A stretch of DNA of 22,238 nucleotides from the IMG/VR virus record IMGVR_UViG_3300042905_004633, positions 1-22,238 of that record, one strand, 5' to 3'. Shown here piece after piece: positions 6,983-18,484 of this stretch; position 1 is the first letter of the stretch; each line of letters opens with the position of its first letter. This stretch comes from a virus. The notes under the pieces were generated by a model. That model had not been told where the DNA came from and did no database searches. It worked only from the letters and a program-made list of their open reading frames with translations. The position numbers and the translations under genes are program-made.

Positions 6983-7396
6983 GGGGGTAAATTGGAATTG
7001 ACTGACATAGTTGGTTGTTCGGGGCATGTCAAGGCTGAGCTAACCTTGTAAAACTGGTTTAAATCGATATACGGCAACGTTATCAACAAACTTTCTGCAG
7101 TAGGATTAATCCGCACTGAAGAAAATGTTTCAGTAGCCTAAGGCGAAAAAAACAACGGGTAGATAGACTTATACCTAGGAACAGAACAGTCTTCATGGTG
7201 TGACATCTACCATAAAAGGTGTAAACTCTAACCAATCAGAGGATAATCAGATGGCAGAGGATAAGTTCTCAGTAAACCGAACTGTATAATAAGGGAACTG
7301 TGGGATTTCGGATTGTTAGATTAAACAATGACCTAAACATGTAGTCCTTAATAATCGTTATGGACAACTACGAGGGTTCGAGTCCCTCTATCTCCA
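6983..7396 (+). ncRNA. ssrA: Transfer-messenger RNA (tmRNA)
   Basis: A phage-carried tmRNA, the trans-translation RNA that rescues stalled ribosomes. The tRNA-like domain is complete. The 5' GGGGGTA (6983-6989) pairs with 3' TATCTCC (7389-7395) with two G-U pairs, followed by discriminator A; CCA is not encoded. The T-arm is GAGGG-TTCGAGT-CCCTC. The 5' segment AATTGGAATTGAC corresponds to the conserved D-loop region of tmRNAs. The resume codon is GGC at 7073, about 90 nt from the 5' end and preceded by TATAC, which fits the known UAGUC-type signal. The tag is 22 codons, starts GNVINKLS, ends EENVSVA, and stops with TAA at 7139-7141. Between tag and T-arm lie several pseudoknot-like segments. 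It has its own consensus promoter. The tag is longer than usual and does not end in the common ALAA. Confidence 0.95.
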
Positions 7397-7406
7397 CATT
7401 TAACAT

Positions 7407-7454
7407 TTTTGTTCTTTTACTATATTTTGAAATATTTATAGTGAAAGAACAAAA
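7407..7454 (+). promoter_or_regulatory. 18-bp hairpin sequestering the endonuclease start, with late-promoter-like motif
   Basis: The arm TTTTGTTCTTTTACTATA (7407-7424) pairs with 7437-7454, 17 Watson-Crick pairs and one G-U. The A of the ATG is the last base of the stem. TATTTATA lies at 7433-7440 on the loop/right-arm border. Read-through RNA from the tmRNA promoter would fold and hide the start, whereas RNA started from the motif could not. The same logic is known for T4 homing endonucleases. The hairpin may also help end tmRNA transcription. Confidence 0.7.
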
Positions 7455-8134
7455 TGCCAAGAAAAAAACCTAATTTCCACTATATCTATAAAACCATTTG
7501 TAATTTTAATCAAAAATACTATATCGGAATGCACAGCACATCTAATTTAGAGGATGGGTATATGGGTAGTGGTAAAAGATTAAGATATTCAATAAGAAAG
7601 TATGGTAAGGATAACCACACTAAAATTATTATAGAGTTTTTACCTAACAGAGAATCATTAAAAGAACGTGAAATTGAAATTGTTAATTCGGATTTATTAT
7701 TAGATGAAAATTGTATAAATCTTAAAACAGGTGGTTATGGTGGAGGGAAATTTTATTCTGAAGAACATAAATTAAAATGTTCTAAATCCGGTAATGAAAT
7801 GTTTTTAAAAAAAATGCAAGATGAGGAGTATCGGAAAGAGTTTTCGAAAAAATTAAGTAATGCTTATAAAAAACAAGTTCTTGAAGGTAAACGAGAAAAA
7901 AAATATTTTTACCATTGGAATGGGAAAACTCACACAGATGAATCTAAACAAAAAATGAGTGAAGTGAAGAAAGGGACTGGTATTGGTATTAAAAATTCAC
8001 AATACGGGACTTGTTGGATAACTAAAAATAACGAAAATAAAAAAATTAAAAAGACTGACATTAATCTGTATTTAGATGATGGATGGGTTAGAGGTAGAAA
8101 TACAGGTATAACCAAAAAGATAACTAAAGTATAA
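7454..8134 (+). CDS. GIY-YIG homing endonuclease with NUMOD3 motifs
   Basis: A 226-residue free-standing homing endonuclease. The GIY-YIG nuclease core is at the N-terminus: HYIYKT (residues 9-14), YYIGMHS (22-28), the GYMGSGKRL segment, and a Glu in the following helix (KEREIEIV). The C-terminal part has NUMOD3-type DNA-binding repeats (YSEEHKLKCSKSG and HTDESKQKMSEVKKG), as in SegE-like phage endonucleases. It cleaves DNA at a specific site to spread its own gene. It sits 58 bases after the tmRNA, so the tmRNA locus of related phages is a natural candidate target. Expression is probably limited to late infection by the start-codon hairpin described separately. Confidence 0.9.
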   Translation: MPRKKPNFHYIYKTICNFNQKYYIGMHSTSNLEDGYMGSGKRLRYSIRKYGKDNHTKIIIEFLPNRESLKEREIEIVNSDLLLDENCINLKTGGYGGGKFYSEEHKLKCSKSGNEMFLKKMQDEEYRKEFSKKLSNAYKKQVLEGKREKKYFYHWNGKTHTDESKQKMSEVKKGTGIGIKNSQYGTCWITKNNENKKIKKTDINLYLDDGWVRGRNTGITKKITKV

Positions 8135-8581: not shown

Positions 8582-9957
8582 TAGCCTAAACATTGTCACT
8601 CGGTAAGTTCAACCCGAGGTAGTGATTAGTGAAACCTCTACCTAACTTCTATCGTGAGTTGTGATTGGTGTACGACCTAAACGTTTGTATGTTTATTACC
8701 CTTTATTAATTTTAAGACTTAAAGGGAACGTGGTTATAACAAAATCCACATCCTATAAAAAAAGTCCTGACAATTTTTACCACTATATCACCTCAGGTTG
8801 TCGTGTCAAAGACAGATTGGTACTTATTACTTTTTATATTTTCTATGAGGTAGAATCGTGAAGTCACAAGATAAAACAAACACGCAAAGACCCAAATCAT
8901 TATGTTTTCCTTCAGTTTAAACTCGTGGTGGGTGTTATGATTTAAAAAAACACGTACGGAGTCACTTAGTTGCGGGAGAAGGATTCGAACCTCCGACCTA
9001 AAGGTTATGAGCCTTTCGAGCTACCAACTGCTCTATCCCACTATATTTGGCTATAAATAAGGCTGAGATTACACCTGTTTATGAGAAACTTTAGTAGGAT
9101 TATTGATTCCCCACATATCCACTTCCTTTTGAGAAGTATTCCTCAGTGACGATTGGTTAGACCAATCACTTCTTGAGATATCAGTTACTCTCTTATTACT
9201 TAACTCTCTTCAAAGATGCCTCTCCGACTCTTCCTTATGGGAATAGAGGTTTTTGGTAAGAATACAGTCAGACTTGCGGTCTTCATGTGCAATGAACGGC
9301 TCATTACTATGTAGTCACCTTTCACTGATACCTAACGGACACTTTTGCTTATTTTTAGTTAATTTTACTTAATTTAGTATAAGTTACGTGTTGTGGATGA
9401 ATCAAAGTAGCGGTCCGTTGAAGGATTCGTTCTCTTTTGGAAAACGAAATACCAAACTACTCCGTGAGATGTCCCCATCTCCATATTTTAAGATTACTTC
9501 GTACCAAGACTTTGGTAAGTCTTTGATAAGGACAGTAGCGACACCACTCGTTCTCTATCTTACCTTTCGGTTTTAAGTCCCCTCTTATATTGGTAACCGC
9601 AATCATGTAGTTGGAGACCACATTTTTTGCTTGATACCTATGGGTTATTCTTATTGGAGTTCCCTCCTCAGACTGACAATCCACATTGCCGTTCCACCCA
9701 ACCACTTTCCCTAAAGCGTTGCCCTCAGTACTAAAGGTCGGATGATATCCCACTTGTGTACTCGACCTCGGTTTCCCAAGACGCGAACCTACTAACACTT
9801 GAAGATTCACTTTATCCCACTTTCGTGGTTTATTTAACGACCATACACGGCCGATTATCTTTTTTCAGTTATCTCAGAATCAACCCGAAGGTCTCATCAT
9901 AAACATCCTGATGGATAATACAATAATTCAAAGAACATATCGGACGTTTCCGATTTT
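8545..9957 (-). ncRNA. Large structured non-coding RNA with embedded initiator tRNA
   Basis: About 1.4 kb between a consensus promoter (9964-9994) and an intrinsic terminator, without a credible protein gene. Many perfect short hairpins are visible on the minus strand, several closed by stable tetraloops: ATCGGA-AACG-TCCGAT at the 5' end (9939-9954), ACC-UUCG-GGU (9883-9892), CCAC-GAAA-GUGG (9817-9828), ACC-GAAA-GGU (9562-9571), AAGACUU-ACCA-AAGUCUU (9506-9523), GAGAUG-GGGA-CAUCUC (9466-9481) and GAUUGGU-CUA-ACCAAUC (9151-9167). A tRNA lies inside at 8970-9042, leaving about 915 nt upstream and about 390 nt downstream. Giant ornate phage RNAs such as GOLLD and ROOL have this size, this structure density and this tRNA association. 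I cannot assign a family without a covariance search. It could be processed into several RNAs. Confidence 0.75.
8970..9042 (-). tRNA. tRNA-Met(CAU), initiator type
   Basis: A full cloverleaf of 73 nt with discriminator A; CCA is not encoded. Anticodon loop CTCATAA gives CAU. Initiator marks: position 1 x 72 is an unpaired A x A while positions 2-7 pair (GTGGGA/TCCCGC), the D-stem is GAGC/GCTC with A11-U24, and the D-arm and following bases (GAGCAGTTGGTAGCTCG) match bacterial tRNA-fMet closely. The anticodon stem is AAAGG/CCUUU, so only two of the three G-C pairs usual for initiators are present. T-arm GGAGG-TTCGAAT-CCTTC. It lies inside a long structured transcript and needs RNase P/RNase Z processing. 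Confidence 0.92.
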
Positions 9958-10012
9958 GTTTTACAAAGATAGTAAACTTTTTTGATTTACCAAATCTTTT
10001 TTTGTTTTTTTT
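9927..10012 (-). repeat. Direct repeat copy A (promoter + RNA 5' leader)
   Basis: About 86 bp nearly identical to 10235-10320. It covers a whole promoter, the first transcribed bases, a 5' hairpin with AACG loop and a following GUUCUUUGAA. Differences in the hairpin keep it paired (some G-C pairs become G-U), pointing to a conserved RNA structure rather than only a duplicated promoter. Confidence 0.85.
9964..9994 (-). promoter_or_regulatory. Promoter P1 of the large structured RNA
   Basis: Minus strand TTTG (9991-9994), 19-nt spacer, TATCTTTG (9964-9971): exact Bacteroidetes consensus. Predicted start near 9957. Confidence 0.85.
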
Positions 10013-10070
10013 TGAGATTAGGAAACCACGATTTTACAACTAACTGTCAACCCATTCTCATTTTGTTTTA

Positions 10071-10102
10071 CAAAGATAAGACATTTTTTTCAATCTGTCA
10101 AA
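10071..10102 (-). promoter_or_regulatory. Promoter P2
   Basis: Minus strand TTTG (10099-10102), 20-nt spacer, TATCTTTG (10071-10078). It would start a roughly 60-75-nt RNA before P1, or feed into the large RNA. No protein gene follows. Confidence 0.75.
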
Positions 10103-10109
10103 TCTTTTT

Positions 10110-10265
10110 ATGGTTATTATAACTGATGCGGTAACATATTTCATTTACACTTTAAATGCGAAGGAGTCCCGTAGTCACTTTCCTCACATACAACAGTAGC
10201 CCTACGGACCTAGACTGTTTCTATAACCAATTTCTTCAAAGAACTAAATCAGACGTTCCCGATTT
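10110..10265 (-). ncRNA. Candidate small structured RNA between P3 and P2
   Basis: About 155 nt downstream of promoter P3. It begins with the repeated 5' hairpin (AATCGGG-AACG-TCTGATT), has a long stem GTCCGTAG / CTACGGGAC (one bulged G) around an internal GGCTACTG...GAGGAAAG region, and a perfect CATTTA-AAGTG-TAAATG hairpin. No reading frame of note. The 3' end is not fixed by a clear terminator, so it may be the 5' part of a longer RNA. Confidence 0.5.
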
Positions 10266-10320
10266 GTTTTACAAAGATAGTAAACTTTTTTGATTTACCA
10301 AATTTTTTTTTGTTTTTTTT
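10235..10320 (-). repeat. Direct repeat copy B (promoter + RNA 5' leader)
   Basis: Second copy of the 86-bp module at 9927-10012, starting a different downstream RNA. Confidence 0.85.
10272..10302 (-). promoter_or_regulatory. Promoter P3
   Basis: Minus strand TTTG (10299-10302), 19-nt spacer, TATCTTTG (10272-10279); part of repeat copy B. Confidence 0.85.
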
Positions 10321-14453: not shown

Positions 14454-15464
14454 TTAAATACCATAAGGTGTTTTACTAAAAATAATATTTTCTTTTAATT
14501 CGGTATGGTTTGATATAAAGTTTTTAATGTTTTCCTGCATTTCATCTGAATTATCATAAGTATAAATCACATTATTATAGATTAAGTTAAAAACCCCAAC
14601 TTTTTCCAAAATATCAATTTTATTAAAAATCAAATTTGTGACTCCATTTATGTTAATTGATTTAATAATATCATCCACATTTAACCAATTAACCTGTCTC
14701 GGTCTTCCTGTCGTTGCACCAAATTCTCCACCCTCTTGTCTTATTTTCTCAAAATATTCTGATTTACCTTCAAAAGATTTTAACCCCACATATGTTCTAT
14801 ATGCTTTGGCAATACCATATACTTTTCTAATTTTTTGTGGTGGAACACCATTTAATACCGCAGAACCAACGGTACAATGTGAAGATGTGACATATGGATA
14901 ATCTCCCCAATCAATATCCAATTCAAAACCTTGGGCTCCTTCAAAAAGAATCGATACTTCATTATTCCCATACAACTCATCGTAAATATCAATAACCATA
15001 TTCCTATCATTTAAACGGGAATTGTTCTCGGCTCTAACTCCAACTCTATAATATTTATCACGATAAGAAGGACCATTTCCGGTTTTTGTTGTTCCAATTT
15101 CAGTGTCTTTGGAATCTTCCTCAATATGACTCTTGGTGATAATGTGAACTCGTTTATCAACAAATAAATTACCGTCTACTTTAATCCCATTAGATTCCAG
15201 TTCGTTAATTTCCTCAAATAGTTTATCAATATTTACAACACACCCGGGACCTATAATTGATTTTATACCGTAAAGCACCCCACAAGGGATAAGATGGGTT
15301 ACAAATTTTTTATCATTATGATATATTGTGTGTCCGGCATTACCACCACCATTATACCTAATTACTGTTGTATAATCACCTGTTTTACATAAGGAATGTG
15401 TGACTTTACCTTTACCTGTGTCTCCCGCTTGTAGGTCAACAACAACATCTGCGAATTTAATCAT
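14454..15464 (-). CDS. purA: Short adenylosuccinate synthetase (PurA family)
   Basis: A 336-residue GTP-dependent ligase of the PurA family; cellular enzymes are about 430. Motifs: QAGDTGKGK (12-20) with D15 at the catalytic Asp position and the P-loop; GGGNAGHT with H45; GTTKTGNGPSYRDK (123-136) for IMP binding; FEGAQG (173-178) and YPYVTSS (188-194); GATTGRPRQ for aspartate/IMP binding. It makes adenylosuccinate from IMP and aspartate. Short phage relatives include PurZ, which uses dGMP to make 2-aminoadenine DNA. Retention of the catalytic Asp, which as I recall is substituted in PurZ, favours true PurA activity, but this needs alignment. No DatZ, MazZ or DNA polymerase is in the window. 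It is third in a run with the cREC-like and conserved phage genes. Confidence 0.92.
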   Translation of the reverse strand: MIKFADVVVDLQAGDTGKGKVTHSLCKTGDYTTVIRYNGGGNAGHTIYHNDKKFVTHLIPCGVLYGIKSIIGPGCVVNIDKLFEEINELESNGIKVDGNLFVDKRVHIITKSHIEEDSKDTEIGTTKTGNGPSYRDKYYRVGVRAENNSRLNDRNMVIDIYDELYGNNEVSILFEGAQGFELDIDWGDYPYVTSSHCTVGSAVLNGVPPQKIRKVYGIAKAYRTYVGLKSFEGKSEYFEKIRQEGGEFGATTGRPRQVNWLNVDDIIKSININGVTNLIFNKIDILEKVGVFNLIYNNVIYTYDNSDEMQENIKNFISNHTELKENIIFSKTPYGI

Positions 15465-16390: not shown

Positions 16391-16420
16391 AATAAAAAAC
16401 CCCTCCGAATAGAAGGGGTT
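16391..16420 (-). terminator. Intrinsic terminator of the second structured RNA
   Basis: Minus strand stem AACCCCT / AGGGGTT (16414-16420 with 16398-16404) with an extra U tract directly after. It is followed immediately by the promoter of the cREC operon. Confidence 0.9.
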
Positions 16421-16888
16421 AAAAAAGTCAGACACTCACACCGATAGGGTTCACATCGGAACTGACGTTAGGTTATATAGTATCCCTTAACTGCTATTAT
16501 CCCTCCCGACTATCCCTTTTGAGTTAAAGAGCTTAGTAACCATCCATCGGGGGTTTCTACTTTCACACTCCGTCCATGTTTACTTATCTAATCGATGCGT
16601 CATAGAGTTTTCAACATAGCGTTCAGTGCTATCCTCAGAACATCTTCACCCTACCCCCAAAGTTACGTGGTGAGTCTCACTCGGAAGAAGAGTGTATATT
16701 GTAAGATTGTTCAGTATTCTTACAACTTGTGGATTGTATTACGACTAATTAAAGCCCCTTACCCCCTTAACCCATAATGGGGAATCCTTACCTAACCTGT
16801 GTAGCCTCCCCCATAGCCTTGAAGCCTTCAAGTCAGGTTCACACGCCATAACAGTCGGATATCTCTGTTAATCGTGGGGTCTTATTTT
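16391..16888 (-). ncRNA. Second structured non-coding RNA, about 490 nt
   Basis: Transcription unit bounded by a host-type promoter (16895-16926) and an intrinsic terminator, with no believable protein gene. Perfect hairpins on the minus strand include CTTGAAG-G-CTTCAAG (about 16819-16833), TTGTAAGA/TCTTACAA (16699-16725), CACTC/GAGTG (about 16679-16695), ATAGC/GCTAT (16616-16632) and CCGAT/ATCGG (16441-16459). AACCTG and CAGGTT enclose the CTTGAAG hairpin as a multi-branch element. Two separate hairpins show the same ACTGAAC sequence in their loops. I see no match to RNase P RNA, 6S or SRP RNA landmarks. It may belong to a GOLLD/ROOL-like class of large ornate phage RNAs, which I cannot confirm. 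Confidence 0.7.
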
Positions 16889-16894
16889 GTTCTA

Positions 16895-16926
16895 CAAATG
16901 TAGTAATAGTTTTTCAAACTATCAAA
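16895..16926 (-). promoter_or_regulatory. Promoter of the second structured RNA
   Basis: Minus strand TTTG (16923-16926), 20-nt spacer, TACATTTG (16895-16902); predicted start near 16888. The first bases (GTAGAACAAAAT) resemble those after promoter P1 (GTAAAACAAAAT). Confidence 0.8.
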
Positions 16927-16930
16927 TATT

Positions 16931-17024
16931 ACCGTGAAATTGGTTAACCACATCGTGAAAGCCGCCCCTCACGCGTTGTTTAAAGGAATCCGATTGCGGC
17001 CTCATCCTATTAACTTATCACGGT
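16931..17024 (-). ncRNA. Compact 94-nt structured element after tRNA-Leu
   Basis: A perfect 7-bp closing stem ACCGTGA / TCACGGT surrounds internal CCG-CAAT-CGG, GTGA...TCAC and TGGTTAACCA helices. It starts 5 nt after the tRNA-Leu 3' end and stops just before the -33 box of the next promoter. It could be a small RNA cut from the same precursor as the tRNA. Confidence 0.5.
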
Positions 17025-17028
17025 TTTG

Positions 17029-17112
17029 TACCCTTGGAGAGATTCGAACTCTCAATGTCGTTATGACTCCTGAACCTAAATCAGGCGGCTATACCAATTT
17101 GCCTACGAGGGT
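17029..17112 (-). tRNA. tRNA-Leu(UAG)
   Basis: 84-nt class II tRNA. Acceptor ACCCTCG / CAAGGGT (one C x A mismatch), D-arm GGC/GCC, anticodon stem CCTGA/TCAGG with loop TTTAGGT (anticodon UAG, reads CUA), variable arm with a GTC-ATAAC-GAC stem, T-arm GAGAG-TTCGAAT-CTCTC, discriminator A as required for Leu. CCA is not encoded. Confidence 0.93.
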
Positions 17113-18396: not shown

Positions 18397-18484
18397 TGTT
18401 GGAGACAGGATTCGAACCTGTATTCAGGGACTTAAAGTAAATTCCCCCTCTAAGTTTGTATGGCAACCATTACGCCACTCCAAC
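18397..18484 (-). tRNA. tRNA-like gene with abnormal anticodon region
   Basis: 88 nt. The acceptor stem is perfect (GTTGGAG/CTCCAAC), the T-arm is perfect (ACAGG-TTCGAAT-CCTGT), the D-arm is plausible (TGGC/GCCA around a TGG loop) and the discriminator is A. No position allows a 5-bp anticodon stem with a 7-nt loop bearing U33. The best alternative is GGGGA/UCCCU closing a 12-nt loop, leaving 14 extra bases after the D-arm and a 4-nt variable region. It could be an interrupted tRNA, a decayed class II tRNA or a tRNA mimic. Confidence 0.6.

Follow-up and report, generated by a model that had tools for sequence, protein, structure and literature searches.

An apparently undescribed large structured RNA encoded in phage tRNA arrays

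To our knowledge, there are few well-supported bacterial or phage RNA classes that exceed ~400 nt and have an unknown function, GOLLD, ROOL and OLE among them. Several such large RNA classes form unexpected RNA-only assemblies. GOLLD and ROOL RNAs build RNA-only nanocages and are frequently encoded near phage tRNA islands, their function being unknown (PMC12286853). Here, we analyzed a 22,238-nt stretch of viral DNA (IMG/VR record IMGVR_UViG_3300042905_004633, positions 1–22,238; hereafter, the window), in which a first-pass annotation had proposed a second large structured RNA at 16391–16888, independent of another at 8.5–10 kb. We term this unit RNA-2.

Comparison with known RNA families

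Rfam searches of the window detected GOLLD (9464–9060, minus strand), tmRNA (6983–7399, plus strand) and tRNAs, with nothing at 16391–16888. Neither RNA-2 of the window nor its homologues matched any Rfam family, permissive thresholds (E up to 10) included; matches appearing at lax thresholds were discarded as chance only and lay mostly over the terminator. The RNA at 8.5–10 kb proved to be GOLLD, and a covariance model of the RNA-2 middle domain, run on the window, matched RNA-2 itself and nothing else, leaving the GOLLD region without a match and bearing out the proposal of a second, independent RNA.

GOLLD (RF02032) is, like RNA-2, large, structured, phage encoded and located within or beside tRNA arrays, and in the window both are preceded by the same promoter type. 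Of 50 RNA-2 contigs, 26 also carry GOLLD. However, GOLLD combines a conserved 3′ domain with a variable 5′ domain, whereas RNA-2 is shorter and has a single compact core, and no likeness was seen by sequence or covariance model; the 416-position GOLLD 3′-domain model gave no RNA-2 match at E up to 10. ROOL resembles RNA-2 as a large ornate RNA with several pseudoknots that occurs in phages near tRNA islands (PMC12286853), and its Rfam model matched neither RNA-2 of the window (E up to 10) nor divergent members. OLE RNA shares the large size, complex fold and high conservation but is reported to be a membrane-associated ribonucleoprotein found mostly in Bacillota (PMC12054373 and PMC10898510), and RNA-2 has no Rfam match to it. 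Finally, tmRNA (RF00023) is a structured phage RNA of ~400 nt in the same window, from which RNA-2 differs in lacking a tRNA-like domain, a tag frame and a model match.

The genomic setting shared with GOLLD and ROOL might suggest that RNA-2 is a strongly diverged member of one of these or of another known family that escaped Rfam. We consider this very improbable, as a full-length GOLLD domain was recognized in the window at 319 bits, not even a weak GOLLD or ROOL match was obtained for RNA-2 and the RNA-2 model in turn misses the GOLLD region. No description of the family was found among the open-licence papers searched. On sequence comparison, RNA-2 represents a strongly supported RNA family outside Rfam that apparently has not been described before.

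The known RNAs of the window have features of their own. The GOLLD 3′ domain is full length at 9060–9464 (minus strand), and tRNA-Met (9042–8969, minus strand) lies 17 nt further on; it follows the detected GOLLD core, and the annotated arrangement, with the first RNA surrounding this tRNA, does not hold for the detected part. Three Bacteroidetes-type promoter motifs are located 5′ of GOLLD (9964–10302), two of them identical and 308 nt apart. The tmRNA has a promoter motif just upstream and is followed by a NUMOD3-containing protein (7454–8134, plus strand) that, judged by eye, looks like a GIY-YIG homing endonuclease. Elsewhere, an adenylosuccinate synthetase homologue (14454–15464, minus strand; Pfam PF00709, E 1.4e-81) may be of the PurZ type, and a tRNA-like Rfam match of 32.5 bits at 18397–18484 (minus strand), not called by ARAGORN, is possibly degenerate or unusual.

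Extent of the unit, promoter and terminators

The unit at 16391–16888 is encoded on the minus strand, with conserved RNA-2 running from 16883 to ~16421 (~463 nt); lengths in the family range from ~410 to ~550 nt. The locus comprises the following features.

16421..16883, minus strand: RNA-2, conserved structured noncoding RNA (alignment of 46 distinct homologues and covariation)
16895..16926, minus strand: Bacteroidetes-type promoter TTTG-N20-TACATTTG (motif count and sequence)
16394..16420, minus strand: second GC-rich intrinsic terminator (also precedes cREC in relatives that have no RNA-2 at this spot)
16931..17024, minus strand: RNA-3, a separate ~90-nt structured element between tRNA-Leu and RNA-2 (no Rfam match)
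17028..17112, minus strand: tRNA-Leu (TAG anticodon), upstream of RNA-2

RNA-2 begins with AAGACCCCACG at 16883 and ends in its own hairpin followed by U6 (16466–16421), an arrangement that is terminator-like in many members, not in L005, L006 and L008. The GC-rich terminator at 16420–16394, previously taken as the boundary of the unit, recurs 5′ of the gene cREC in L004, L005, L006, L008 and L009, none of which has RNA-2 at that spot. It therefore lies outside RNA-2, was rejected as a component of it and is part of the next gene's neighborhood. This gene, cREC (Pfam PF20274), is directly downstream of RNA-2 in the window, on the same strand, and shows 76% nucleotide identity to Flavobacterium phage immuto; this match and the Bacteroidetes-type promoter motif make a flavobacterial host likely for the window phage. 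The position directly upstream of cREC would also suit a long untranslated leader or riboswitch-like region of a neighboring gene. Such a role is hardly credible for RNA-2, given that two terminator-like hairpins separate it from cREC, that the downstream neighbor varies among homologues (different tRNAs or genes) instead of being constant and that relatives contain cREC without RNA-2 at the same place.

The annotated promoter is present exactly as proposed, with TTTG at 16926–16923, a 20-nt spacer and TACATTTG at 16902–16895 (minus strand). Motifs of the type TTTG-N19–21-TAnnTTTG occur five times in the window (1.07 expected; a count of five in none of 100 shuffles), upstream of GOLLD (three), tmRNA (one) and RNA-2 (one). 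As a family-wide feature, however, the promoter did not hold: a TAnnTTTG box immediately 5′ of RNA-2 exists in the window, L025/L027 and L214, while most members lack it, many of these being located inside tRNA arrays. An own promoter is, hence, lineage specific and not a general RNA-2 feature.

The tRNA-Leu noted earlier as the partner of the unit is indeed near, 144 nt upstream, but does not directly adjoin it, the small structured element RNA-3 lying between, and is no fixed partner. Flanking tRNAs differ by homologue (Leu/Thr, Leu/Phe, Ser/Arg, Arg/Pro and others), which rules out a fixed tRNA-Leu partnership. The next tRNA often begins just 3–7 nt beyond the RNA-2 3′ hairpin, and arrays of at least 20 tRNAs occur nearby, so that RNA-2 has the phage tRNA-array location typical of GOLLD.

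Several small elements accompany RNA-2 in these arrays. RNA-3 (~75–95 nt) forms a closed stem with two hairpins, the loops of which look complementary and show a compensatory change (GCCGC/GCGGC versus GCUGC/GCAGC). Copies were located at L015:2918–3005, L025:3706–3781, L005:4461–4560, L047:7673–7774 and L028:6106–6178, and the pattern occurred in 12 viral contigs, including two beyond the fetched RNA-2 carriers. A second conserved element of ~66 nt (GCGGATGGAAACAACTAYARRACGAGCATACGTCATAC) lies directly 5′ of RNA-2 in 15 loci (L012, L164, L165, L168, L171, L173, L177–L180, L184, L186, L198, L201 and L202) and also at the L010 empty site described below. Its outer stem seems to covary (AAGUAAAG/CUUUACUU versus AAAUAGAG/CUCUAUUU), and no Rfam match was obtained at gathering score. 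A CTA-anticodon tRNA (Pyl according to ARAGORN) abutting the RNA-2 5′ end at L016:16558–16632 and in L199 possibly suppresses TAG in a phage with a recoded genome. Freshwater-1 RNA (RF02979) was also identified in RNA-2 tRNA arrays (L006:6123–6184, L172:996–1056).

A covarying fold without a conserved reading frame

Alignment of 46 distinct RNA-2 copies with pairwise identities of 46–99.8% yielded one fold of 15 helices, including four pseudoknots (PKa–PKd), with 81 pairs. Its elements in the window, together with those of a separately aligned 3′ domain (P13 and PKe), are as follows.

16849..16870, minus strand: helix P1, two-sided changes at 4 of 6 pairs
16857–16860 (P1 loop) with 16784–16787, minus strand: pseudoknot PKb, two-sided changes at 4 of 4 pairs
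16841–16844 with 16799–16802 (span 16799..16844), minus strand: helix P2, nearly invariant
16833–16837 with 16817–16822, minus strand: helix P2i, inside P2, two-sided changes at 2 of 5 pairs
16823–16826 with 16803–16806, minus strand: pseudoknot PKa, inside P2, two-sided changes at 1 of 4 pairs, among the weaker helices
16762–16783, minus strand: helix P3 (covariation alignment)
16743–16756, minus strand: helix P4 (covariation alignment)
16770–16774 (P3 loop) with 16730–16734, minus strand: pseudoknot PKc, a single covarying pair
16698..16726, minus strand: helix P6 (9 bp), two-sided changes at 7 of 9 pairs, 37 tree events
16708–16712 (P6 loop) with 16638–16642, minus strand: pseudoknot PKd, two-sided changes at 2 of 5 pairs, 11 tree events
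16678–16694, minus strand: helix P7 (covariation alignment)
16653–16675, minus strand: helix P8 (covariation alignment)
16565..16629, minus strand: variable extension P9, ~14 or ~60 nt by member
16502..16553, minus strand: helix P10, enclosing GGAUGGUUACUA and P11, two-sided changes at 6 of 7 pairs
16514–16531, minus strand: hairpin P11, two-sided changes at 6 of 6 pairs
16421..16466, minus strand: terminal hairpin P13 (16466–16462 with 16431–16427) with inner stem and U6, from 27 homologues of subtypes other than that of the window
16484–16487 with 16446–16449, minus strand: pseudoknot PKe, from the same 27 homologues

Across the 46 copies, 97.6% of cells were paired, and two-sided changes occurred at 48 of the 81 pairs (396 cells), against 26 pairs and 109 cells in a shuffle control. 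With slid partners, at most 17 pairs, 68 two-sided cells and 46.5% pairing were reached; since these very sequences served in part to derive the fold, it should outperform slid versions to some degree, but the observed gap goes far beyond that. Relatedness among copies was checked with a tree built from unpaired columns only. On this tree, the fold gave 193 compensatory events, 95 one-sided events and 48 changes to unpaired, as opposed to 3–20 compensatory events and 259–316 changes to unpaired for slid partners, counts in which phage recombination could inflate compensatory events but would affect the slid controls as well. The comparative folding with homologues suggested by the first-pass annotation, thus, revealed abundant compensatory changes in favor of a structured RNA. 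The series of hairpins noted earlier fared differently on its own: the window copy folded alone was no more stable than chance (z = −0.80; 23 of 100 shuffles as stable), and single-sequence folding energy was discarded as evidence. Covariation constitutes the proof of the RNA-2 fold.

In the 3′ domain, a separate alignment (A3) of 27 homologues supported P13, its inner stem and PKe, with 97.9% of cells paired and two-sided changes at 10 of 18 pairs, all for members other than the window's subtype (window, L005, L006, L008 and L164). In that subtype, per-sequence stems indicate a terminal hairpin that differs from P13 but is analogous to it. Among the helices, support is lowest for PKa and PKc, which show little covariation of their own. 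The 5′ CCCCA may additionally pair with UGGGG at 16809–16813, both arms being invariant.

No conserved open reading frame was present in RNA-2 homologues, in agreement with the annotated lack of a gene. The longest ATG reading frames had a median of 41.5 aa (range, 14–101 aa), those above 75 aa occurred in three members only and each was confined to a single member. The alignment also contains one-base indels between relatives. Judged by these patterns, RNA-2 is noncoding; like the ornate GOLLD and ROOL RNAs, it combines a large covarying fold containing pseudoknots with the lack of a protein product.

Variation in length is concentrated at two places, a ~75-nt segment present or absent between the PKb arms and P9, whereas long stretches are conserved outside helices as well. 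A role of the GGGGGAGG segment as an anti-Shine-Dalgarno binder was dropped after inspection showed that L207, L208 and L224 lack GGAGG. Strong conservation outside helices, a compact pseudoknotted core with variable periphery and a position flush with tRNA genes would also fit a ribozyme that has the invariant single-stranded segments as its active site and processes tRNA-array transcripts or itself. We regard this as unlikely: RNA-2 matched no RNase P model at permissive thresholds, no group I or group II intron model in Rfam and no other Rfam family, and it interrupts no gene but sits between intact tRNA genes, for which splicing is unneeded.

Distribution, cassette behavior and proposed function

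Besides the window, RNA-2 was identified in ~62 IMG/VR contigs. Initial homologues came from blastn and nhmmer searches of loci reached through neighboring proteins, later ones from pattern scans of viral contigs and covariance-model searches of whole contigs. L193 and L209 were rejected, as they contain the pattern but gave no match in the profile search, and covariance-model matches of 10–16 bits at other loci were taken as noise. No homologue was found among 50,697 phage records, which gave only weak chance matches of 20–35 nt; one in Bacteroides phage DAC16 was dismissed, being located in a gap just before a gene, with the best model match of that record (E 1.03) elsewhere. A pattern scan of 84,980 bacterial and archaeal genomes likewise yielded no homologue and a single chance match, to a Methylophaga MAG whose sequence beyond the pattern is unrelated. 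Since only 4 of 50 large contigs of related phages carry RNA-2, its presence is sporadic and it is dispensable.

Comparison of close relatives revealed precise empty sites. The RNA-2 flanks of L179 are contiguous in L010, L011 and L013, all without RNA-2 (CTT|TTTATTGTC versus the interrupted CTT|AAGACC...AACCTTTT|TTCATTGTC). In L006, the sequences flanking RNA-2 in L015 and L185 adjoin each other to within ~12 nt, and an RNA-2 copy (96% identical over 262 nt) lies elsewhere in the L006 array. These empty sites and changed positions indicate a unit that was gained, lost and moved with constant ends, and at the sequence level RNA-2 is a discrete cassette with precise boundaries. The same RNA at different array positions in close relatives would also be expected of a mobile cassette class in which the RNA itself may catalyze or guide its movement or assembly, an idea that we deem improbable; recombination is enough to explain the behavior, while self-mobility is possible but unsupported.

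Varying presence among related phages and shifting array positions are further typical of accessory arms-race genes. With arrays of many tRNAs nearby, RNA-2 might act as a decoy or in counter-defence by binding a host factor, for example a nuclease directed at tRNAs or a protein associated with ribosomes. This, too, seems unlikely, as RNA-2 contains no tRNA-like domain and the high conservation of its core contrasts with the rapid evolution of decoys.

By a modest preference, we favor the reading that RNA-2, a large structured noncoding RNA that phages encode as a discrete unit, forms a new ornate class and works like GOLLD and ROOL. This claim concerns a similar way of working and not membership because RNA-2 matches neither family. 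The analogy builds on how large and intricately folded RNA-2 is and on its position in tRNA arrays; its conservation and phage origin also agree with the kind that includes GOLLD and ROOL. RNA-2 would be transcribed from its own promoter or within the tRNA-array transcript, and would be released at its 3′ end either through termination at the RNA-2 hairpin or when the next tRNA undergoes 5′ processing. In the last and least certain step, RNA-2 would persist as a stable folded RNA, as for GOLLD and ROOL, and serve as a scaffold or self-assembling particle that assists the phage in late infection, probably through a link to translation or tRNAs.

The alignment and fold are a sufficient start for probing and cryo-EM. 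The occurrence of RNA-2 beside GOLLD and tmRNA in the same phages shows that a phage can devote itself to more than one large RNA, each unrelated to the others, and RNA-2 provides an independent case for examining the role of large RNAs in infection and the frequency of RNA-only assembly.
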